Source: Rodentolepis nana (Eukaryota > Platyhelminthes > Cestoda > Cyclophyllidea > Hymenolepididae). From it: a stretch of DNA of 14,184 bases. The position numbers and the translations under genes were made by a program. This document shows positions 2,563-13,928 of this stretch, in pieces (the stretch's first letter is position 1; each line of letters begins with the position of its first letter). The stretch lies in assembly GCA_900617975.1 (NCBI GenBank), contig UZAE01012771.1, positions 17,933 to 32,116 on the forward strand, in the 5' to 3' direction. The notes beneath the pieces are model-generated. The model saw nothing but the letters and a program-made list of their open reading frames with translations, did no database searches and was not told the DNA's origin.

Positions 2563-3887
2563 GAAATATAACAAATTAAATTAAAAAGAGTGACATATAT
2601 CGTGAATATTTTTTCTTAAAATATTTTTTAAAAGCATAAACCGCGAAGTTACCTCTTTTTGAAGATGCACAGCCCAAAGTAGTTACTTGATCAAGCCTTA
2701 TTTAATCAAATCGTGCTCCAAGCTAATGTCGTAAGTGGCCATTTAACAGATACATTTTAACAAATTATTGATAAATTCTAAACATATATTCAAATTTTTT
2801 AACTAACTTAAGTTACTTTACTTTAAAAACAGCAAGCCAATGTCATGTATTTTATTTTATTTTCTCGTTACTTTGAAACACTGAGTTTTAGGATATTTTT
2901 ATCATTATTCAAATTCGGTTAGCTTAATCAGTAATTATACGTAGAAAAAACGGATTATTATTTTGTGAAATTAACAGTTTGATAAAGTTTATGGTATATA
3001 CAAAACCTAGTGGCCTTATACTATGCATATTATTTATATATTGACTCTTATTGATATCGGTTATAACCATGGTTGTAAAACTTTGGTTAGAAAGGACACA
3101 TTGTAATTTTTGTCAATATATCTTCATAAGTGTAAATATTAACTAATAATACCTCTCAAGTTTCTACCTATACTTATACTCGTTCGTATTTAAAGATATT
3201 GTTATTTATATTAAAATTGCTCCTAATAGCTTTTTCATATTCACGAGTAAGCTTGACTTATTTTGTTTTTCTATATAAGCATGTCTGTTTTATGTCTTTG
3301 CTTAAGTACATCTGTTATTTCTTTGCTACTACTTTCTACAGAAACGCCTTTTGCTATAAATATTTCTAACTTACCGCACAGTATCCTTACTTAGTTTAGC
3401 ACACAGTCCATTGTATTATGACCGAGCGCGCTGTCTGTCGTACTAATCTAGATTGCCACCCTGACATTTGTCTTAGCCATAAATAAAATTCATCTTTTGA
3501 GAACAGGAATGACCTTCAAGTTTAGCTTGTTAGTTTTAATAAGCACTTTTTCTTCGCAACTTCCGCAGCTTGACCTCATATTCACCAAGCAATCCAGTGT
3601 ATTTGCAGTCTTTCTTCTTACCAGATATTTTACTTACTTATCTTGGGTTGTATATCTTGTGCGATCCAAGTTGCACAACGCCACAACTGGAAGCATTCAA
3701 TTCACACACGCTCAGTTAAATGACTTAAACTGGAAAATTTGTAGTTTTATTGGGATTCACATTAAATTTCTGGCTAATATTTAAGGGCTGTGAATTTACT
3801 GAAATCTTTACGATTTGTGTTTCATTTGTGGAATACCGAATGGAGATTCGCAATCGCCTCTTTTACGATAGCTCGAACATCACTTCT
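2563..3887. other. Upstream intergenic DNA, nothing recognised
   Basis: AT-rich sequence with no recognisable domain. A 95-codon open frame at 3497-3784 (plus) has no motif or homologue I recognise and no coding signature. An ATAAATAAAATTC stretch near 3480 resembles a poly(A) signal but has no gene attached. Confidence 0.5.
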
Positions 3888-3938
3888 GTTGTATGAGTAT
3901 GCGTTGCATCCCGCGGAAGTAAGTCTATCGCTCACCCC
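3888..3938 (-). mobile_element. Family A SINE-like element, old fragment (copy 1)
   Basis: Matches the family's 5' end on the minus strand: it begins GGGGTGAGCGATAGACTTAC at 3938 and later has ATGCAACGCATACTCATAC. The middle, including the P1 3' strand of the ribozyme, is deleted or heavily changed. Similarity may extend left to about 3826 (GTGGAATA), but that part is uncertain. The oldest-looking copy in the window. Confidence 0.7.
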
Positions 3939-5780
3939 ATCAAGCTAAAAGATAAAGCATTGTAAATTTAAATTCCTACTTTTAGTCAGATTCATTTAAT
4001 ATGTAATTTAAATTTGAATATTTTTACTACAAACAGAACCACATGTAATTATCCGGTTATATCTAACGTTCACTATTCTGGACAAAAATAATAATGAACA
4101 TCTATCGATTGAATAAGATTGGTGATTGCTATTGCACTAGCAGTAATATCCGGTTAAAATGAGCACTGTTTTACTTCTTTATCTTAAACAATAAGAACAT
4201 GAAAATTTTTAAAAGAAAGGCTTTTCTTTGTACTTCAATATAAGATTGAAAGGCATCCTTAAAAATGCCTTTAGATAGCAAAGCACTATGTTAACGACTA
4301 TTCCATTGCTTATAATTAATAAATCGACGGCTCTTTTTCTTTTAAACAAGTTGCCATCTTGTGAATATTTGTAAACTTGAAAAATAGTGCTTTGATAACT
4401 GTGCCCTGGTTTAGAAAATTTCCCATTCGAATTTTCATAAATAGCGCAAAATATGGAATACAATTCTTTCTTCTTTCCTTAAAAGAAATCATTTGTTTTA
4501 TTATGAGAGTGAATTAAGTCAACAGACTTTAGTGTCACAGTATTCAATTCTACTAAATGCAATTTTGAATTTTAGCATATTCTTGTACTTTACCTTATGC
4601 TTTACTTTACCTTATGGTCGAATTACAATATCTGTCTATTAAATTATTGCTTCGTATAAAATTTAAAATCATGAAAATTAAAAAGGTAAATAGCCGTTAA
4701 ATAATATTAAGACGGTTTAGTCGATTTCGGCCCAACTCTTGATTGAAATCAACCAATTAATTTTTTCATAGTTTTTTTATTTTTAATAATTTGGTACATC
4801 TCGAATTTTTCGATTAAGAACATTTATAAGAATTGATGTTTCTGTTAGCGGGTCGAAAAACTTAACATTGATATTTCTTTTACTTGAATACTGCAGGTCC
4901 AATACTTACCACACTTTATTACCAACATAATCGCATATAACTTTAGTTCAAAGGCTCCACTTTCCTCTCGGTTTCCTCTTATTTGCTCCAGGAATTTCGA
5001 TTAGATGAAATTCAACTACATTCCAGTAAAATCGAAGTTTTAATCCCTAATGTGTGACTGCTTACTTTGAGTCGACTGTAGAAGTATCATAATGAAGATT
5101 AGAATTTTATGGACTAACAAGATCAGTCAGTTTAAATGGAAAATATTCCATAAAAATGCAAAAATCTCGAAAAACATAATAAAATCATCATTCTTGGCTA
5201 ATTAAGTGATTGGGTGAAAATTTATCCATTTCAATCCTCTAAATACGGTACATTAGTTTTAGTTACCATTTAATTGAGTCGAAAGTGTAATATTACATTT
5301 TGCGAACAACAAAATACTATAAGTTTCACGTACAGATATCCAAATATTTGAGCTAATAAATGGTTACTTTTAGCTCAATTCTATTGAAACAACACTTATT
5401 TTCGAAAATGCTACTACAAATTCGTTAAAATGTTATAAAACTTAACTTCTCTGTTTTAAGTGGATATTGCGTTCATGTGTAAGCAGAAACAGTATCCAAG
5501 CCAATGCGTAGTGAAGAGATTACAACGTTAACCCAGTTAGCGTCTCACCATGGGAATTTGTTAGTCCATCGAATAGGAATAGAGAAAAATGGGAAAATTC
5601 TTTTCTTTTGTTTGCTATATAAAAAAAACATTTCGAAAAATTAGACAAATTATCTGCATTGGAGAAGATGAAGCTTATGCCAGCAAGGTTGCTATCTCAC
5701 ACCCCAGAGTAGTTGGAATAAACTAGATGTGGGTCAATATGAAGAGCTTAGACAGCATTCACGACTAACCTTGTTATTCA
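3939..5780. other. Intergenic DNA, nothing recognised
   Basis: AT-rich, with no supported gene or named repeat. Only a 14-bp direct duplication (TACTTTACCTTATG at 4586-4599 and 4603-4616) stands out. Its right end, ACCTTGTTATTCA at 5768-5780, is the left target-site duplication of the next element. Confidence 0.5.
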
Positions 5781-5854
5781 GGGGTGTGCGATAGACTTAC
5801 CTCCACGTGGTGCACCCTGGGCAACGTATACTCATACGGCAATAAAGTCTATCG
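5781..5854 (+). ncRNA. HDV-like self-cleaving ribozyme, best-preserved copy
   Basis: Fold traced by hand. P1: 5781-5787 (GGGGTGT) pairs with 5812-5818 (GCACCCT), 7 pairs including G1-U at the cleavage site. J1/2: 5788. P2: 5789-5798 (CGATAGACTT) with 5845-5854 (AAGTCTATCG), 10 perfect pairs. P3: 5799-5801 (ACC) with 5809-5811 (GGT). L3: TCCACGT, whose CC can pair with GG at 5819-5820 as P1.1. P4: 5825-5829 (CGTAT) with 5834-5838 (ATACG), loop ACTC. J4/2: GCAATA, candidate catalytic C at 5840. The strand order is that of the HDV ribozyme class. Predicted cleavage falls between 5780 and 5781, exactly the element boundary given by the target duplication. Known members of the class sit at the 5' ends of R2- and RTE-type retrotransposons. 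Activity is not proven here. Confidence 0.82.
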
Positions 5855-6113
5855 AACCGGCAGTTGACTTCTCACTTCAAACTATCATGACCCCACTGTA
5901 TGTCATATTCGACTACTTCCACAGTACTCAGCTTACTTTTTCTCTGCCTTTGTGTCTGTCTCTTTTACATCTTTAAACCACTCTTCCATTCCTCCCTATC
6001 GACTTTTTTCACTTTAATGTTCCTCCTCCCCTCTATGAAGCCCGTAGTCAACTAAAGGGCTAATGATACCTATCAAAACGCCTGCCATTTGACATAAATA
6101 AATAAATACAAAT
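5781..6113 (+). mobile_element. Family A SINE-like retroposon, full length (copy 2, reference copy)
   Basis: A 333-bp element bounded by a perfect 13-bp target-site duplication, ACCTTGTTATTCA (5768-5780 and 6114-6126). It starts GGGGTGTGCGATAGACTTAC, runs through a pyrimidine-rich middle (TCTCTGCCTTTGTGTCTGTC), and ends GGGCTAATGATACC...CGCCTGCCATTTG with an (AAAT)n-like tail. A-rich tail, long duplication, no terminal inverted repeats and no ORF indicate LINE-driven retroposition of a non-autonomous element. I see no convincing tRNA, 5S or 7SL head. The 5' 74 nt fold as an HDV-like ribozyme. The parent could be an RTE-type LINE, judging by the tail (inference). Confidence 0.88.
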
Positions 6114-6351
6114 ACCTTGTTATTCAAGTTCATCTCATGAAACAATTGATTCTTTAGGATGAAGGAACTTAACACAAAATCAAGGCAAGGTGTCAAGAGC
6201 TAATGAAGCCTCAATTATAAATTAACTAATTTAGGTAATATGATTAGTCTGATAGGAGAATTGAGGTCACATCAAAAGATTGGACTTTCTAGCAAACTAA
6301 TTTTGATCGTCCAATCAAGTCACTTCAATATAACTCATGCAATGACACCCA

Positions 6352-6366
6352 CCCACACACACACAC

Positions 6367-6415
<49 letters not shown>
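6352..6415. repeat. (AC)n microsatellite
   Basis: About 30 AC/CA units with one G interruption at 6371. It lies in the spacer between two inverted family A copies. The histidine/threonine-alternating frame read through it is an artefact. Confidence 0.95.
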
Positions 6416-6417
<2 letters not shown>

Positions 6418-6576
6418 AGAAGAAAACACCGAATTTTAAGTAATGTTTAACCACCCGATCGAATGACTACCATTTTAGATGACCAGCTAACACGAATTAA
6501 GCTTACTTGATTTAACCCGTTTTATTGAATTGTGACTGAGTAATAATGATTCTAGTTATAAGATAAATTATGCAAA

Positions 6577-6882
6577 AAAATATTTATTTATTACAAATGG
6601 CAGGCGTTTTGATAGTTATTATTAGCCTTTAGCTGACTTCGGGCTTCAGAGAGGGGAGGAACATCAAAGTGTGACAAATACGAGAAAGGGAACAGAAGAG
6701 ACGGACAGACACAAATGCCGAGAAAAGGTAAGATGAGTACGGTGAAAGTGGTGGAATATGACATAAAGTGGGGTCATGGTAGTTTGAAGTGAGAAGTCAA
6801 CTGCCAGTTAATAGACTCTTTTGCCTTATGAGTATACGTTGCCCAGGGTGCATCACGTGGAGGTAAGTCTATCGCGCACCCC
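6577..6882 (-). mobile_element. Family A SINE-like retroposon, full length (copy 3)
   Basis: Reverse orientation: the A-rich tail appears as TATTTATTTATTACAAATGG on the left, and the 5' end GGGGTGCGCGATAG is at 6882 on the right. It is flanked by a perfect 11-bp target-site duplication, AATTATGCAAA (6566-6576 and 6883-6893), so both ends are intact at about 306 bp. It differs from copy 2 by scattered substitutions and small deletions. Confidence 0.87.
6809..6882 (-). ncRNA. HDV-like ribozyme, slightly decayed (copy 3)
   Basis: P1 GGGGTGC/GCACCCT is complete (7 pairs, first one G-U). P2 keeps about 8 pairs plus wobble (AGTCTAT side intact). P3 is ACC/GAT with one C-A mismatch, and P4 has one C-A mismatch (CGTAT/ATAAG). 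J4/2 GGCAAAAG keeps the candidate catalytic C. It may be weakly active or inactive because of P3. Confidence 0.65.
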
Positions 6883-7152
6883 AATTATGCAAACATATGT
6901 AATGAGAAGTTAAAATTGAATTATTGGGTCATCATATTTTACTAAATTGAATTGTCATTAAGCCTGTACCTCAATTAACGATATCAGTGAGTTCAAAACA
7001 CTTCTAAAAATGTGTTCTCCATTTAGGTTAGCCATGCTTTTATATCTAAAAGTATAAAATTAAATAATTATTTTTAATTTTAAAATTAAATTTATTTGAC
7101 AATATTTTTATCCTAAACATCGCTCATGGCCTCTACAATGACGTCCTGAATG

Positions 7153-7454
7153 TGTAGCGGATTGCTACCTTAGTAAAGCCTGACTGAGTCAGAAATCTCT
7201 ATGGCAGATCCTCCTACATCTAGCTAGACTCCTAGAACCAGCTAAGCTATCGCCCAGATATGAAAGGAAACAGACGTGTAGCATGGAGCACGTTTATTCA
7301 GTACGAGTATTGCAGGATAAAGTGTACACGCAGGAAGCTTAATCATGATCAGGATGGCGGATTAGGTTAAACAAACAGTGTTAATGATTGGTCACTGTTT
7401 GTACGGTCGCACCTCCCAATCCTGGCGCGCAAGCATGCGATGACGTGTCCCACA
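7153..7454 (-). mobile_element. Solo LTR of a retrotransposon (LTR family, copy A)
   Basis: On the minus strand it runs TGTGGGACACGTC to CAATCCGCTACA, about 302 bp with TG/CA ends. AATAAA (7298-7293) lies about two thirds of the way in, as in LTRs that carry their own poly(A) signal. It aligns with the LTR at 12213-12547 over blocks such as GTTTGTTTAACCTAA, CTGATCATG, ACTGAATAAAC and CAGTCAGGCTTTACTA. No clean 4-6-bp target duplication is visible and no gag-pol sequence adjoins it, so it is a solo LTR or a remnant. The superfamily is undetermined; the ends would suit a Ty3/gypsy-type element. Confidence 0.75.
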
Positions 7455-9099
7455 ATTGTCAGAAAAAAAGAATTTTATCCAAGTGAGGCATTTTAGAACT
7501 GTAAATAACCTGCAAATTATCTTTTGTCTTCGGAGTATTATGATTGTTTAAATCTCTTCATTATACGCCAGATTACTCAAAGTCTGGCTCATACACCCCT
7601 AAGAAATAAAGCGAGTATTCAAATTTATACAAAACCAATTATAAGTTTTGCTCTGTTTACTACTATTTGCTACGCGATTTAAGTGTTAGAGTATCACTAG
7701 AATTTAATTTCTATTTAAAGTTAATTTAATTAAGTAAATTTAAATTTTGTCTAGACTAATAGCTGCATTTCAAGTTCCTGTGGGTAAAGTAAAGGCGCGC
7801 AGAACGCAGCATACACTGCGAACATGTTTCAGACGAATGATTTAATATTACTATCCACCAAATATTCCCCTTTTGCTTTCTGATAAAAAAAATTAAACTT
7901 TGAATTTTAAAATTTAAAGTTTCCGCACTTTCGTGAACGTCTGAGTGAACATGCAACTTCTTCGTTCACCCTTGTGGTAGTGCTATGCACTGCCCAATTT
8001 CCCTGAGATGAATAACTGCTTAAAGACTTTATTAAGTTGAATCGAAATTCCCCCTTTAATATGTAAAATATTTAATCCGTATTTGTTACTTAAGACGATT
8101 GAAATATTCCTAAACGCAATAAAACGCATTCTGAAATAAAAGCAAACGTGTTTTTCAAAAGCATTTATAACCTGTCAGTTGGAATTTACAATTATTTAGG
8201 TAACGGATTAACGATCAAGGATAGTAATATAACAGAGAATTTTATTGCATACATAAATTGCAATAATTCAGTGTAGAATACTTTTAAAATATTTAATAAG
8301 TAAAATAATACTATATATATAGTCATTTCAAGCTGGATGTTTGATTATCTTTGCTGTAAGGTGTTAACTAAGGTGCAAATGGTGTCAATTAATTAACGAT
8401 TAACTCCCCTTAAAACACTTAGATACCAATTTCGTAAGTCTTCCATCTCCCGGTTGCCATAGCGCATGCCTCGCCATAGTTCCAGCGTAAAAAAATCTAC
8501 ACTAACTGGGTATGGATGTCTACTTATGTTGAGTCCAATGTACACTTAGGTAAATAGGCTTACGAAGTAATTGGATTGAATAAGACCACATCAAACTGTC
8601 CCACATAGTCATTGGTGGGAAATTGTCTAAGGACATCTCAGATATTGTCCAATCAAATTAGGATCTGATAGTAAGAATTAACAAAAAAATATCAGCCATC
8701 ATATACACCTATTTATAAAATCTGTTTTAAAGCGCGAACAGTTTTCTCCATTCGTCATATTTCAATTATTATTGATTTCCTTCATAGAGGCAATAAGTAA
8801 AAATCAGCTTTACAATATTTAGCTGGAGGTAGAAATTATTACGGGAAAGGCCGATTGATTTCTTTAAATTTGTTAATTTCTGCTCAAAGGCTGTTCAGTA
8901 ACTAAGAGGGTTGAATAGAAGACCCCTAACTGCAAACCATTAGAAAAGCTTTAGCTAATAATAATTTGGCAAGTACTTATTTTATTTCATTTTGGCAACG
9001 CGAATACATAACGTTTAACTAAGGCGAAGGTAGCAATAGTGAAAGCGTGTCTGACGTCATTTTATTCTTAGACGCACGTTGTACATCTGCTTTGTGTTC
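7455..9099. other. Intergenic DNA between the LTR and copy 4, nothing recognised
   Basis: AT-rich, no supported gene. A short minus-strand frame at 7756-7956 and a patch near 8440-8680 with more mixed composition were inspected without recognising a family. Confidence 0.5.
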
Positions 9100-9233
9100 T
9101 AACATTTCAGACTTACCTCCACATGGTGCATCCTGGGCAACGTATACTCATACGACAAAAAAGTCTATTGACTGGCAGTTGAGTTCTGACTTCAAACTAC
9201 CATGACCCCACCGAATGTCATATTCGAATTTTT

Positions 9234-9476
9234 CACAGTACTCACCTCACCTTTTTTCTACCTTTGTGTCACTTCACAGTACTCACCTCACCTTTCATCT
9301 ACCTTTGTGTCTTACACAGTACTCATCTTACCTTTTTCTCTACCTTTGTGTCTGTACACAGTACTCACCTCACCTTTTTTCTACCTTTGTGTCTGTGCTG
9401 TACTCACCTTACCTTTTTCTCTACCTTTGTGTCTGTCCATAGTACTCACCTCACCTTTTTTCTACCTTTGTGTCTA
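9234..9476 (+). repeat. 40-bp minisatellite inside copy 4, six units
   Basis: Six tandem units built on CACAGTACTCACCTCACC and TTTTTTCTACCTTTGTGTCTG. GTACTC recurs at spacings of 39-42 bp. Other family A copies carry a single unit, so the array arose by expansion within this copy. The long overlapping frames across it encode repeated threonine/leucine/phenylalanine-rich runs and are not genes. Confidence 0.9.
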
Positions 9477-9598
9477 TCTACTTTTCATCTTTGAAAGACT
9501 CTTCTGTCCCCCCTCCCCTTTGTCCACTTTTTTCACTTTGATGTTCCTTCCCCTTTGTGAAGCCAGAAGTCAACTAAAGGGCTAAAGATAACTATCAT

Positions 9599-9898
9599 TT
9601 ATTTATTTATATCAAATGGCAGGCGTTTTGATAGTTGTCATTAGCCCTTTAGTCGGCTTCAGGCTTCACAAAGGGGAAGGAATATCAAAGTGAAAAAAGT
9701 CGAGGGAGGGGGTACAGAAGAGTGTTTCAAAGATGTAAAAGAGACAGACAGATACAAAGGTAGAAAAAAGGTGAGGCGAGCACTGCGAAAGGAGTCGAAT
9801 ATGGCATAGAGTGGGGTTCATGGTAGTTTGAAGTCAGAAGACAACTTCCAGTTAATAGACCTTTTTGCCGTGTGAGTATACGTTGCTCAGGGTGCACC
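9599..9898 (-). mobile_element. Family A SINE-like retroposon nested in copy 4 (copy 5)
   Basis: Tail on the left (TTATTTATTTATATCAAATGG) and a truncated 5' end GTGGTGCACCCTGAGC at 9898. It interrupts copy 4 with the duplicated target ACTATCAT (9591-9598 and 9899-9906). The 5' truncation removes P1, P2 and most of P3/L3, so it has no ribozyme. It is younger than copy 4 by nesting. Confidence 0.85.
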
Positions 9899-9943
9899 AC
9901 TATCATAACGCCTGCCATTTGATATAAATGAATAACTATTTCA

Positions 9944-10620
9944 AATGCCCGGATTTCTGTTTCGCTACTATGGGGCTTCTAAATGAAGTCACTATGTCAC
10001 TTTAATTTGGAATGGGTAGTCACAGAATTTCGTTCAAAAGGAGAACAACGTGGTGGCAGCTTTTCAAGGTGGTCTGTAGTCAGTACATTCCTCCCACCAA
10101 AATTTCTGCTCTTGTAACTCCACTGTTGCTCAACCTTCCCCTTTAATGACTTAAGGCTTTTGAGTAATGAAGTTTCCATATCAATGAGTGACCTTTCTTG
10201 ACAGTTGTAGGGCCTATAGACTCGCTATTCACTTTTTATATCGACGAGTTCCCTATCTACACCATCTTGGGATTTTTATCACTTTTCGGACAAATATCTT
10301 CCGGAAGGAATGATCTAGAATTGAATCGGCTAAATGCGACCAGGGAATTATACATGTCGTAAACATGCTAAGCACGGGGTGAAGAGAACTTACTTCACAC
10401 AACATGCAAATTCCTTCACTGCCTTTCCTTCGCGTCATCTGTCCAAATGGCTCTCCAAATGACTGGTCACGTTCGCGCCGTGCCTACTAAGGTGATTTCC
10501 GCTGCTGTTGTAGCCTTCACACGCTCATTCGAGACACCTTTTTTACTAGCACACTCTCTTCCCTCCCCCCCTCACCTCTATTCAACTTACCCACTCCTTA
10601 AAGTAATTTGTTTGCGAAAA
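9944..10620. other. GC-richer unique patch with two short minus-strand ORFs, function unknown
   Basis: This stretch is less AT-rich than its neighbours. Two minus-strand frames are open: 10438-10253 (starts MTRRKGSEGICMLCE, followed at once by a GTAAGT donor-like site) and 10179-9997 (KSLKSLKGKVEQQWSYKSRN..., ending in TGA; open a little upstream of its ATG, including RPYNCQERSLIDM). These might be exons of a small gene or of a decayed transposon. I recognise no domain and no acceptor between them is convincing. Confidence 0.25.
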
Positions 10621-10901
10621 TAAATTTTAATTGCCTATGATCTAAAGCTTTAATGTAAACAATAAGTATATTCAGTTAAAGTAGACCTCCATTTTTGTTG
10701 GATTTCAGACAAAATCAGCTTAATTTTCTTATCACGGAATGATATATTATGTGTACAATGAACTTATATACTAATGTAAGTTTGTAACGATAGCAAGCAA
10801 TCTAAACTAAGAGGAAGGTGTAGGTACTTACGAGAGTCGGAAAATGGACGCATTTCTAACTCAAATATACTGAAATTCTTTGCTATTTACATTCAAGATC
10901 T
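10621..10901. other. AT-rich spacer, nothing recognised
   Basis: Unique AT-rich sequence. ATTCAAGATCT at its right end may be one half of a decayed target duplication for copy 6. Confidence 0.4.
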
Positions 10902-10976
10902 GGGATGTGCGATAGAATTACCTCCACGTGGTGCACCCTGGGCAACGTATACTCATACGGCAAAAAAGTCTATCAA
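10902..10976 (+). ncRNA. HDV-like ribozyme, decayed P1 and P2 (copy 6)
   Basis: P3 (ACC/GGT), L3, the P1 3' strand GCACCCT, P4 (CGTAT/ATACG) and J4/2 GGCAAAAA with its C (10961) are intact. P1 has G4 changed to A (A-C mismatch in the middle of the helix), and P2 has C changed to A (GAATT against AAGTC). Predicted weak or inactive. Confidence 0.6.
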
Positions 10977-11220
10977 ACTGACAGTTGAATTCTGACTTCA
11001 AACTACCCTTTATGTCATATTCGACCACTTCCACAATACTCACCTTTCCTTTATCTCTACCTTTTCGCCTGTCTGCCACTTTGAGATCATTGAATCACTC
11101 TTCTGTTTCCCCTCTCCACTTTATCTCACTTTGATATTCCTCCTCTGTGAAGCCCCGAAGTCAGCTAAAGGGCTAACGATAACTCTCAAAACGCCTGCCA
11201 TTTTAAAAACATAAATAAAT
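10902..11220 (+). mobile_element. Family A SINE-like retroposon, near full length (copy 6)
   Basis: Begins GGGATGTGCGATAGAATTACC and ends CAAAACGCCTGCCATTTT with an ATAAATAAAT tail, about 319 bp. Flanks ATTCAAGATCT (10891-10901) and AATCAAAATAT (11221-11231) match at 8 of 11 positions, compatible with an old target duplication. Substitutions suggest an older copy than copies 2 and 3. Confidence 0.83.
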
Positions 11221-11554
11221 AATCAAAATATGCTTTAAAATGACTTTTCGATACAGTGCGTTAGGCTATTCTTGCTACTTAGGCGAATTGAAACGTTTAA
11301 CGTTTATTCTTTCGTTGATCTGAAAGTCGGCAAAAGTAGACGTTTCCATTGAGGCAAAACTAGTCTTTATCAGGAGAGAAGAAATTCAAACCTTTTTAGC
11401 AGCCTGAAATGAATAAACTTATAAGCGACGGGGGGAGGGCGGGTGAGGTACTGGGTCTAAACTTTAATTTTACCCTTTCATTATTTTTTTATTGTACCAA
11501 AAAAATAACAACTCAAATGTCCTTTTTTAACTAGGATTTTTCAATTCTCTCTTT
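11221..11554. other. Spacer between inverted copies 6 and 7
   Basis: Unique sequence with no gene. A G-rich run, GGGGGGAGGGCGGGTGAGG, lies at about 11430-11448, with three G-runs of three or more plus GG, short of a full quadruplex pattern. Confidence 0.5.
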
Positions 11555-11884
11555 ACATTTATTTATTTGTATCAAATGGCAGGCGTTTTGATAGATATCA
11601 TTGGCCCTCTAGTTGACTTCAGGCTTCACAGAGAGGAAGGAACATCAAAGAGAAAATACATCGAGATGGGGAACAGAAGAGTGTTTCAAAGATGCAAAAG
11701 AGGCAGACAGACAAAGGTAGAGAAAAAGGTAAAATGAGTACTGTGAAAGTGGTGGAATATGACATACAGTGGGGGTCATGGTAGTTTGAGGTGAGAAGTC
11801 AACTGCCGGTTAATAGGCTTTTTTGCCGTATGAATGTACGTTGCCCAGGGTGCACCACATGGAGGTAAGTCTTTCGCACACCCC
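11555..11884 (-). mobile_element. Family A SINE-like retroposon, full length (copy 7)
   Basis: Tail on the left (ACATTTATTTATTTGTATCA) and 5' end GGGGTGTGCGAAAG at 11884. TCTCTTT on both flanks (11548-11554 and 11885-11891) is a likely short target duplication. About 330 bp, with all segments of the family in order. Confidence 0.85.
11811..11884 (-). ncRNA. HDV-like ribozyme, P2 weakened (copy 7)
   Basis: P1 GGGGTGT/GCACCCT, P3 ACC/GGT, L3 TCCATGT, P1.1 GG and J4/2 GGCAAAAA are intact. P4 is CGTAC/ATACG with one mismatch. P2 (CGAAAGACTT with AAGCCTATTA) has two internal mismatches, so folding may be impaired. Confidence 0.6.
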
Positions 11885-12212
11885 TCTCTTTTTATATAAA
11901 AGATATTTCAACAACCCCACGTCTTTGGAGATTAGAGGGTGAAGGTAAGGTTTACGAATAAATACCGACTACAGGTTATAGACTACTTAGAACTTTGTGT
12001 TAGAATTTGTAGAAAGCGGATCAGGCAAGTCATAAAGAGGCATCAGGCTTCAATGAGATCAGAAATGTTAAATCATGGCAATAAGTTTGCGAAGCGTGCA
12101 TTTAGATTAATTTAATGGGTTGAAATATACGATTATGCTTAATGTTGCTTAGTTTCGCGAGATTTTAGAGAGAACTGTTATCATTTTGTGCAATTTTAAT
12201 ACTGATCGAAAC
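11885..12212. other. Spacer, nothing recognised
   Basis: Unique sequence between copy 7 and the plus-strand LTR. No ORF or repeat of note. Confidence 0.5.
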
Positions 12213-12547
12213 TGTTGGACAAGGCATCGCTTAGCACATCATCGCAAGCACGCACGAAGGATCGGGAGGTGCGGCAGTACAACTCTCTGTGCAGACAACC
12301 GTACAACCAGTGGCCAATCAGAAGCCTCCGTTTGTTTAACCTAACCCGCCATGCTGATCATGTTTAAGCTCCCTGAGTGTTCACTTTATGCACCAGATAC
12401 TGAATAAACATGTTCCGTGTTATAAGTCTGTTTCCTCTATAGTTGGGCTATAGCTTAGCTAGTTCTGGGAGTCTAGGTAGATGTAGGAGAATCTACCACA
12501 GAGATTTCTGAGTCAGTCAGGCTTTACTAGTGTAGCTATTCGCTACA
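12213..12547 (+). mobile_element. Solo LTR of a retrotransposon (LTR family, copy B)
   Basis: Runs TGTTGGACAAGG to CTATTCGCTACA, about 335 bp with TG/CA ends and AATAAA at 12403-12408. It is the same family as 7153-7454 but in opposite orientation and longer, with extra sequence in the first 100 bp (for example CTCTCTGTGCAGACAACC). The opposite orientation means the two are not ends of one element. No target duplication is seen at either possible 3' end, and the terminus is repeated downstream. Confidence 0.75.
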
Positions 12548-12621
12548 TGTTCGAGACTTAGGGAGCAATCCGCTACAAGTCTACAAAACAATATACATAA
12601 CTAGTGTAGCTATTCGCTACA
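12526..12621 (+). repeat. Tandem copies of the LTR 3' terminus
   Basis: A 22-bp terminus starting ACTAGTGTAG and ending TTCGCTACA occurs at 12526-12547 and again, identical, at 12600-12621. Between them, at 12556-12577, is a variant (ACTTAGGG...CAATCCGCTACA) that resembles the end of the other LTR at 7153 more closely. Each exact copy contains the inverted pair TGTAGC/GCTACA. Confidence 0.8.
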
Positions 12622-13082
12622 AATCTCAAGATCATAGGGACTAATTGGTCAATTTTGGTTGATTAAAACTTTACTTCAATTAGCATCATGCAATGTTGGC
12701 ATTTTAATGAAAGAATTGGTTAAAAGTAAATACATCTCCATCAAGGTATACTCTATTGTGTTATAACCAACCACAACATTTTAGGCAAGTAGTTGCAACT
12801 TGACAAGTAGTAGTCCATTGCATTGTTAAACCGAAAGGGGAGGGGGAGAGAGAGAGAGAGAGGAAGAGGTAATGGATTCACCTTTGCTTGATTTTTGACT
12901 ATTAATCCAATGTGCAATTCACTGCCTTAAATTCCAAAATTTAAAGCATCTATCCACTATCTCCAGCATCTATTTATCAAAGTATTTGATTATGACGGCC
13001 ATTTCTTCCACTTTTTCCTTCAGCGGTTCAAAAAGGTGCATGAAAGCAAATGGACGTCTGCCTCATTTATAATGAGGGGTTG
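12622..13082. other. Spacer with a purine tract
   Basis: Unique AT-rich DNA. At about 12834-12868 there is an all-purine G/GA run (G4, A, G5, then about nine GA units and GAAGAGG), able in principle to form triplex DNA. No gene is seen. Confidence 0.55.
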
Positions 13083-13156
13083 GGGGTGTGGGGTAGACTT
13101 ACCTCCACGTGGTGCACCCTGGGCAACGTACACTCAGACGGCAAAAAAGTCTATTA
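13083..13156 (+). ncRNA. HDV-like ribozyme, largely intact (copy 8)
   Basis: P1 GGGGTGT (13083-13089) with GCACCCT (13114-13120), P3 ACC/GGT, L3 TCCACGT and GGGC are intact. P2 GGGTAGACTT (13091-13100) with AAGTCTATTA (13147-13156) keeps seven Watson-Crick pairs plus two G-U. J4/2 is GGCAAAAA with its C at 13142. P4 is weaker (CGT/ACG with a larger loop). A good second candidate for activity. Confidence 0.7.
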
Positions 13157-13389
13157 ACCGGCAGTTGACTTCTGACTTCAAACTACCATGATCCCACTCT
13201 TTGCCATATTCGAATTCTTCCACAGTACTCACCTCACCTTTTTTCTACCTTCGTCTTTGAAGCACTCTTCTGTCCCCCCCCCCTCTCGACTTTTTTTCCA
13301 CTTTGATGTTCCTTCCCCTATGTGAAGCCTGAAGTCAACTAAAGGGCTAATGATTACTATCAGAACGCCTGCCATTTAGTATAAATAAG
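13083..13389 (+). mobile_element. Family A SINE-like retroposon, near full length (copy 8)
   Basis: Begins GGGGTGTGGGGTAGACTTAC and ends GAACGCCTGCCATTTAGTATAAATAAGT. About 307 bp, with a shortened middle (part of the TCTGTCTCTTTTACATC segment is missing). No clear target duplication; AATGAGGGGTT on the left and GATGATGGGGTA on the right are only suggestive. Confidence 0.82.
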
Positions 13390-13586
13390 TGATGATGGGG
13401 TAAATAACTTGTTCGTGCATGTACAAACAAAAATCACTTGTAAAATATTAACACTACGCCTTGTTCATATAAATCCACATTGACAATTGTATATATTCTT
13501 CTCATTTGTCAATGCTTTTTATATTATTATAAAATGGAACCACCTTTGGTTTGCATTCATTTCTGTTAAGATTTCCGTCTAATAAT

Positions 13587-13928
13587 TTATTTATTTATTT
13601 ACATCAAATGGCAGACGTTTTGATGGCTATCATTAGCCCTTTAGTTGACTTCAGGCGTCACAGAGGGAAAGGAGCATCAAAGTGCGAAAAGTCGAGAGGG
13701 GGGGGACAGAAGAGTGTTTCAAAGACAAAGGCACAGGTGTAAAAGAGGCAGACAGACACAAAGGCAGAGAAAAGGTAAGATGAGTACTATGGAAAGGGTC
13801 GATTATGACAAAGAGTGGGGTCATGGTAGTTTGAAGTGAGATATCAACTGCCAGTTAATAGACTTTTTCCGTATGAGTATACGTTGTCCAGGGTGCACCA
13901 CGTGGAGGTAAGTCTGTCGCACACCCCC
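13587..13928 (-). mobile_element. Family A SINE-like retroposon, full length (copy 9)
   Basis: Tail on the left (TTATTTATTTATTTACATCA) and 5' end GGGGGTGTGCGACAG at 13928. The flanks share CTAATAAT (13579-13586 and 13935-13942), and the repeat probably extends to about 13-14 bp with changes (TCCGT-CTAATAAT against TCTGAACTAATAAT). About 342 bp. Short frames through it are chance. Confidence 0.85.
13856..13927 (-). ncRNA. HDV-like ribozyme lacking the catalytic C (copy 9)
   Basis: P1 GGGGTGT/GCACCCT, P3, L3 and P4 (CGTAT/ATACG) are intact, and P2 is mostly intact. J4/2 reads GGAAAAAG where the other copies have GGCAAAAAAG, so the candidate catalytic cytosine is deleted. P1.1/J1.1 is GGAC rather than GGGC. 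Predicted inactive. Confidence 0.62.

Follow-up and report, generated by a model that had tools for sequence, protein, structure and literature searches.

A short retroposon headed by a predicted HDV-type ribozyme and sharing its head and tail with a LINE in the tapeworm Rodentolepis nana

In Drosophila, the R2 SIDEs and the R2/R1 hybrid SIDEs combine a 5' HDV-like ribozyme with the 3' terminus of an autonomous LINE and are mobilised in trans; some published SIDEs contain extra sequence too (PMC3414825, in the sections available to us). The conserved core of R2 reads CCUCCUCGUGG (available text of PMC5035012). In trypanosomes, L1Tc/NARTc and ingi/RIME are dispersed pairs, each made up of a LINE with endonuclease, reverse transcriptase (RT) and RNase H and of a truncated partner, and both partners are headed by an HDV-like ribozyme of ~77 nt (PMC4035085, likewise in part). 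HDV-like ribozymes have also been reported for other LINEs, namely R4, Dong, baggins and L1Tc (cited in PMC3774820, as excerpted). For tapeworms, the H. microstoma genome paper puts LINEs at 1% of the assembly, and the whole word SINE is absent from its available text (PMC7653826). A search of the open-access literature, by titles and the openings of abstracts, turned up no tapeworm paper that deals with a ribozyme element of this sort.

Here, we describe an element in a 14,184-nucleotide stretch of Rodentolepis (Hymenolepis) nana DNA from contig UZAE01012771.1 (the window, whose positions are used below). A full-length copy of 333 bp (copy 1) lies at 5781-6113 on the plus strand. Sequence comparison, in which its head and its tail prove common to a LINE, makes the element a Short Internally Deleted Element (SIDE) with a predicted ribozyme head. 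We consider it very probable that it is a short, non-autonomous retroposon, with a predicted HDV-type ribozyme as head and, like its head, a tail in common with a LINE, that spreads by cutting itself out of read-through transcripts and borrowing the enzymes of the LINE.

Like the R2 SIDEs, the tapeworm element joins a predicted HDV-like ribozyme head to a LINE 3' end (PMC3414825, available sections), and its core, CCUCCACGUGG, is one base apart from that of R2 (PMC5035012, in part). Whereas the R2 SIDEs keep to fixed positions in the 28S rDNA (PMC3414825, same sections), the tapeworm copies are dispersed, in thousands. Indeed, the 53 full-length copies show no R2-site pattern of 28S rDNA insertion: they are dispersed, and their duplications differ. 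In further contrast to R2, the partner LINE encodes an APE-type endonuclease together with an RNase H. In this it is like L1Tc/NARTc and ingi/RIME, as far as these are described in the text available: the LINE has endonuclease, RT and RNase H, and its ribozyme-headed short partner is dispersed. Unlike the trypanosome pairs, however, the tapeworm pair has an animal host and a SIDE middle that is absent from the LINE copies examined, and the likeness is one of domains. R4, Dong, baggins and L1Tc offer a further parallel, drawn by citation: in each, a ribozyme heads a non-LTR retrotransposon (PMC3774820, as excerpted). Ribozyme-headed short elements are known, then, from fly rDNA and from trypanosomes; what is notable here is the number, the host and the spread through an animal genome.

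The predicted ribozyme and the 5' boundary of the element

The predicted HDV-type ribozyme occupies 5781-5854 on the plus strand, as judged from its sequence strands, Rfam models and a strand-order descriptor. P1 (5781-5787/5812-5818) has seven pairs, the first of them G-U; P2 (5789-5798/5845-5854) has ten, P3 (5799-5801/5809-5811) three and P4 (5825-5829/5834-5838) five. The loop L3 (5802-5808) reads TCCACGT, and P1.1 would pair C5803-C5804 with the GG at 5819-5820. The candidate active-site C, C5840, lies in the strand preceding P2' and is retained in 50 of 55 aligned head rows. The strands follow the order P1, P2, P3, P1', P1.1, P4, P2' of a nested double pseudoknot. The initial annotation had set out this order, together with the 7/10/3/5 pair counts, the G-U first pair, the TCC and the C, and every one of these is in the sequence where it was placed. 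The ten-pair P2 holds for copy 1, but not for the family consensus, which has nine pairs with an outermost G-U.

Two Rfam models bear on the head. RF02682, the bacterial HDV ribozyme of Faecalibacterium prausnitzii, matches 5781-5854 with 38.8 bits (E 2.7e-4), below its curated cut-off of 44, and the match to RF00094, which starts at base 5781, has 31.5 bits (E 0.26), below its curated cut-off of 50. The best-scoring ribozyme of the window in Rfam, that of copy 5, reaches 40.9 bits against the RF02682 cut-off of 44, which is exceeded by four copies outside the window (best 48.1 bits; 14 of 20 10-kb loci searched, 131,587 bases), among them one at 8936-9005 of L010, minus strand. RF02682 is the top model in most matches, with all 74 positions aligned and at most 48.1 bits. 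Its P1 begins at element base 3, whereas the tapeworm duplications give G1 as the first base and a full P1 of seven pairs.

The strand-order descriptor has a single match in the window, at 5781, the other seven of its eight copies being missed. In 436 Mb of an order-1 Markov null, it matched once. Across 20 loci and the window (202,877 bases, both strands) there are 21 matches, and in the reversed sequence 0. Since the descriptor was devised after the sequence had been seen and seven window copies fail it, these figures are to be taken as a statement of rarity, not as a blind test.

The insertion boundary can be read independently of the fold. The perfect 13-bp target-site duplication that had been claimed for copy 1, with its boundary at 5780/5781, is present: ACCTTGTTATTCA stands at 5768-5780 and again at 6114-6126, and nowhere else in the window. 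In the 20 loci and the window there are 84 copies of at least 150 nt, three of them at a locus edge, and 61 of the remaining 81 start at element base 1-3. Upstream DNA varies, by eye, between copies in 67 heads, the exceptions being a duplicated pair in locus L012 and a few copies that abut another ribozyme. Duplications of at least 9 nt were found in 16 of 53 full-length copies (0.13% in re-paired controls); in 14 of the 16 they stop precisely at base 1, where cleavage is predicted, and in the other two they are off by one. At the junctions of 37 of the 53 copies there is no duplication of at least 9 nt. Because loci were picked for ribozymes closest to those of the window, seeds make up 18 of the 53 full-length copies. 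Wherever the insertion boundary is legible, therefore, it is the predicted cleavage site. In the initial annotation, the retroposon began precisely with the HDV-type fold; many genomic copies, the Rfam matches and a LINE with the same 5' end bear this out for an element that we take to be target-primed.

Among 35 non-seed full-length copies, conservation is highest in the head (0.939), followed by the 3' end (0.901) and the body (0.861). The initial annotation had also expected covariation among copies in the helices, a prediction that failed to the letter, with none found in 55 heads or, genome-wide, in one P1 pair. In the 55 aligned heads, two pairs changed on both sides, against 1.3 in shuffles, with 92.7% paired against 92.6%. 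Genome-wide, P1 pair 4-35, which was selected since one copy showed a double change, has a single compensated copy, where 0.47 would be expected given 39 and 45 copies with one change each and 3,754 intact ones. We read this null as low power: most copies look like decayed descendants of a few sources, and neutral decay after insertion would itself yield no covariation, so the test has little power. It nevertheless weighs against our reading, and the helices stay predicted.

The lack of covariation, the conserved head and the exact 5' end would also fit another reading, in which the LINE and the SIDE have in their head a common internal promoter or signal for the start site, transcription start sets the 5' end, and the HDV-like fold is either a by-product or has lost its catalytic activity. 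There is precedent for such a signal in Pr77 of trypanosome L1Tc, which is both promoter and ribozyme (PMC4035085, in part). We regard this reading as unlikely: chance very seldom produces the strand order (once in 436 Mb), a promoter has no need of a double-pseudoknot arrangement, and two HDV models recognise the head. A promoter role in addition to the predicted ribozyme is conceivable, and by analogy with Pr77 the head may have one.

The partner LINE and the class of the element

The partner LINE encodes an APE-type endonuclease (PF14529), an RT (PF00078) and an RNase H (PF00075), which stand in that order in locus L032, with PF00075 above its cut-off. Head and tail are directly seen to be common to the two elements. 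The head of the SIDE aligns over 81-94 nt, with 84-90% identity, to L021 and L032, the two examined LINE copies that extend as far as the 5' end, and its tail aligns over 57-68 nt, with 82-87% identity, to all five examined copies. Against the RF02682 cut-off of 44, two LINE heads score 37.5 and 28.6 bits, both below it. In copy 1, the common 3' end lies at 6041-6113 on the plus strand and consists of a predicted hairpin followed by an AATA-rich tail. The predicted 3' hairpins of LINE and SIDE are similar, and as modelled, the hairpin is a plausible recognition site for the RT. Positions 108-245 of the SIDE consensus have no match in any of the five LINE copies examined; the SIDE is thus not a plain internal deletion.

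In L021, a LINE copy opening at the ribozyme spans 3417-4999, its middle missing at an N (4197), and is flanked at 3403-3416 and 5000-5013 by the 14 bases AATTTATCATGACG. Genome-wide, the LINE-specific junction after the ribozyme was found 622 times with up to one mismatch (401 forward, 221 reverse; control 1). An endonuclease lies up to 1.5 kb downstream of 23 of 100 listed LINE-type junctions, with 0 upstream and 0 on the other strand; seen from the endonuclease, 22 of 69 places (taken up to contig C2685) have such a junction. The endonuclease-RT frame of L033 has no ribozyme match on its 5' side, and part of L033 reads N. Another RT locus (L029, contig C4113) proved by its reading frame to be a Ty3-type LTR element, had no SIDE match and was dropped.

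Two features of L021 were noted in passing. One 14-base target stands before the LINE, between the LINE and an adjoining SIDE, and after the SIDE (3403-5357), as in two insertions at nearly one target. At 3532-4251 of the same locus, no ATG lies between the last in-frame stop and the endonuclease motif ILQWNAGGM.

The initial annotation had named R2- and RTE-type elements as bearers of such ribozymes. With its APE-type endonuclease, RT and RNase H, the partner is not of the R2 type. RTE elements are not known to have RNase H, and by that trait a LINE that has one is not of the RTE type. No clade is named in the names of the 76 protein matches to the LINE, and the matches listed include relatives of the LINE among the proteins of H. 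microstoma. Outside flatworms, the named relatives of the LINE RT with the highest identity among the matches listed belong to two spiders, Caerostris (54%, covering 30% of the query) and Araneus (45%, covering 38%).

The two elements suggest how the SIDE may spread. Host transcripts would run through the element, and the ribozyme would cleave them between 5780 and 5781, leaving an RNA that begins at base 1. The RT of the LINE would then recognise the common 3' hairpin, and the LINE enzymes would insert a copy of the RNA by target-primed reverse transcription. Each full-length copy would carry its own ribozyme to the new site, so that a promoter would not be needed.

The initial annotation had called the element SINE-like. 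It is indeed a retroposon with an exact 5' end, but a SIDE of a LINE rather than a polymerase-III SINE. With its size of ~330 bp, its high copy number and its LINE-like tail, it could pass for a polymerase-III SINE whose HDV-like head arose by chance, a reading that we consider very improbable. There is no tRNA in the window and, at E up to 10, no tRNA-, 5S- or 7SL-like Rfam match (for A and B boxes, the sequence was inspected by eye). Moreover, TTTT occurs within all 35 non-seed copies and TTTTT within 25 of the 35, which would end polymerase-III transcription, and the head is common to a protein-coding LINE.

Copies in the window and across the genome

A single element had been annotated in the window; that element is present, but the window carries eight. 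Besides copy 1, they are copy 2 (6581-6882, minus strand, 5' end at 6882, with an 11-bp duplication), copy 3 (9109-9938, plus, without the first 12 element bases), copy 4 (9597-9900, minus, 5'-truncated at element base 27), copy 5 (10902-11221, plus), copy 6 (11557-11884, minus), copy 7 (13083-13388, plus) and copy 8 (13588-13927, minus). Copy 4 lies inside the tail of copy 3, which it splits and which resumes at 9900-9938; by eye, ACTATCA flanks copy 4 on each side. The Rfam microRNA matches MIR4208, MIR7723, MIR2119 and mir-3927 fall on these two tail-to-tail copies and are read as hairpins of the nested insertion. By eye, a further such head, decayed and with a deletion in the P1'/P1.1 region, was seen at 3871-3945 on the minus strand; it is absent from the BLAST matches.

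The eight copies form four tail-to-tail plus/minus pairs (5781-13927), and among neighbours less than 1 kb apart in the window and loci L009-L028, convergent pairs outnumber divergent ones by 13 to 3 (p 0.02, post hoc). Both the pairing and the convergent excess would follow if each pair were a single composite (foldback) transposon with ribozyme-bearing inverted ends, a reading to which we give almost no credence and which was rejected because copies 1 and 2 have their own, separate duplications (13 and 11 bp), while copy 4 is located within copy 3, the spacers run from 0 to 468 nt with no direct-repeat family of spacers among the repeats listed, and 63 neighbour pairs are oriented ++, --, +- and -+ in 17, 10, 18 and 18 cases.

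With up to two mismatches, a 33-base ribozyme core occurs at 12,325 places in the 107-Mb R. nana draft, and its reversed control at 0. This core is retained in 39 of 63 non-seed copies, which with the 12,325 matches gives very roughly 20,000 copies, an estimate inflated by tandem arrays of the head. Such arrays, with units of ~40 bp made up of pieces of the head and the sequence that follows it, were seen in L014 (113-3374) and L011 (3509-4392), and look as if the ribozyme head readily becomes minisatellites.

A dispersed LINE/SIDE pair with thousands of copies in an animal would mean that an element spreading by self-cleavage, with no promoter, is able to occupy an animal genome throughout. 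The pair also supplies more than 12,000 relatives of a single ribozyme as a natural library, and it makes directly testable whether RNA cleavage sets the start of an element. More tentatively, and with rather more doubt than confidence, we raise the possibility that the genome of this dwarf tapeworm is among the densest known landscapes of self-cleaving ribozymes: ~20,000 of the HDV type, about one per 5 kb, spread by the LINE and the SIDE. Many of these may still be catalytic and may cut much of the intronic and read-through RNA at element starts, shaping host RNA and feeding retroposition.

Two further features of the window were recorded. An inverted repeat pair at 7143-7261 and 12439-12557 (119 nt, 85% complementary) belongs to another repeat family, and exons of a Na/K-ATPase beta chain lie on the minus strand at ~230-2370, one identified by Pfam and the rest by eye.
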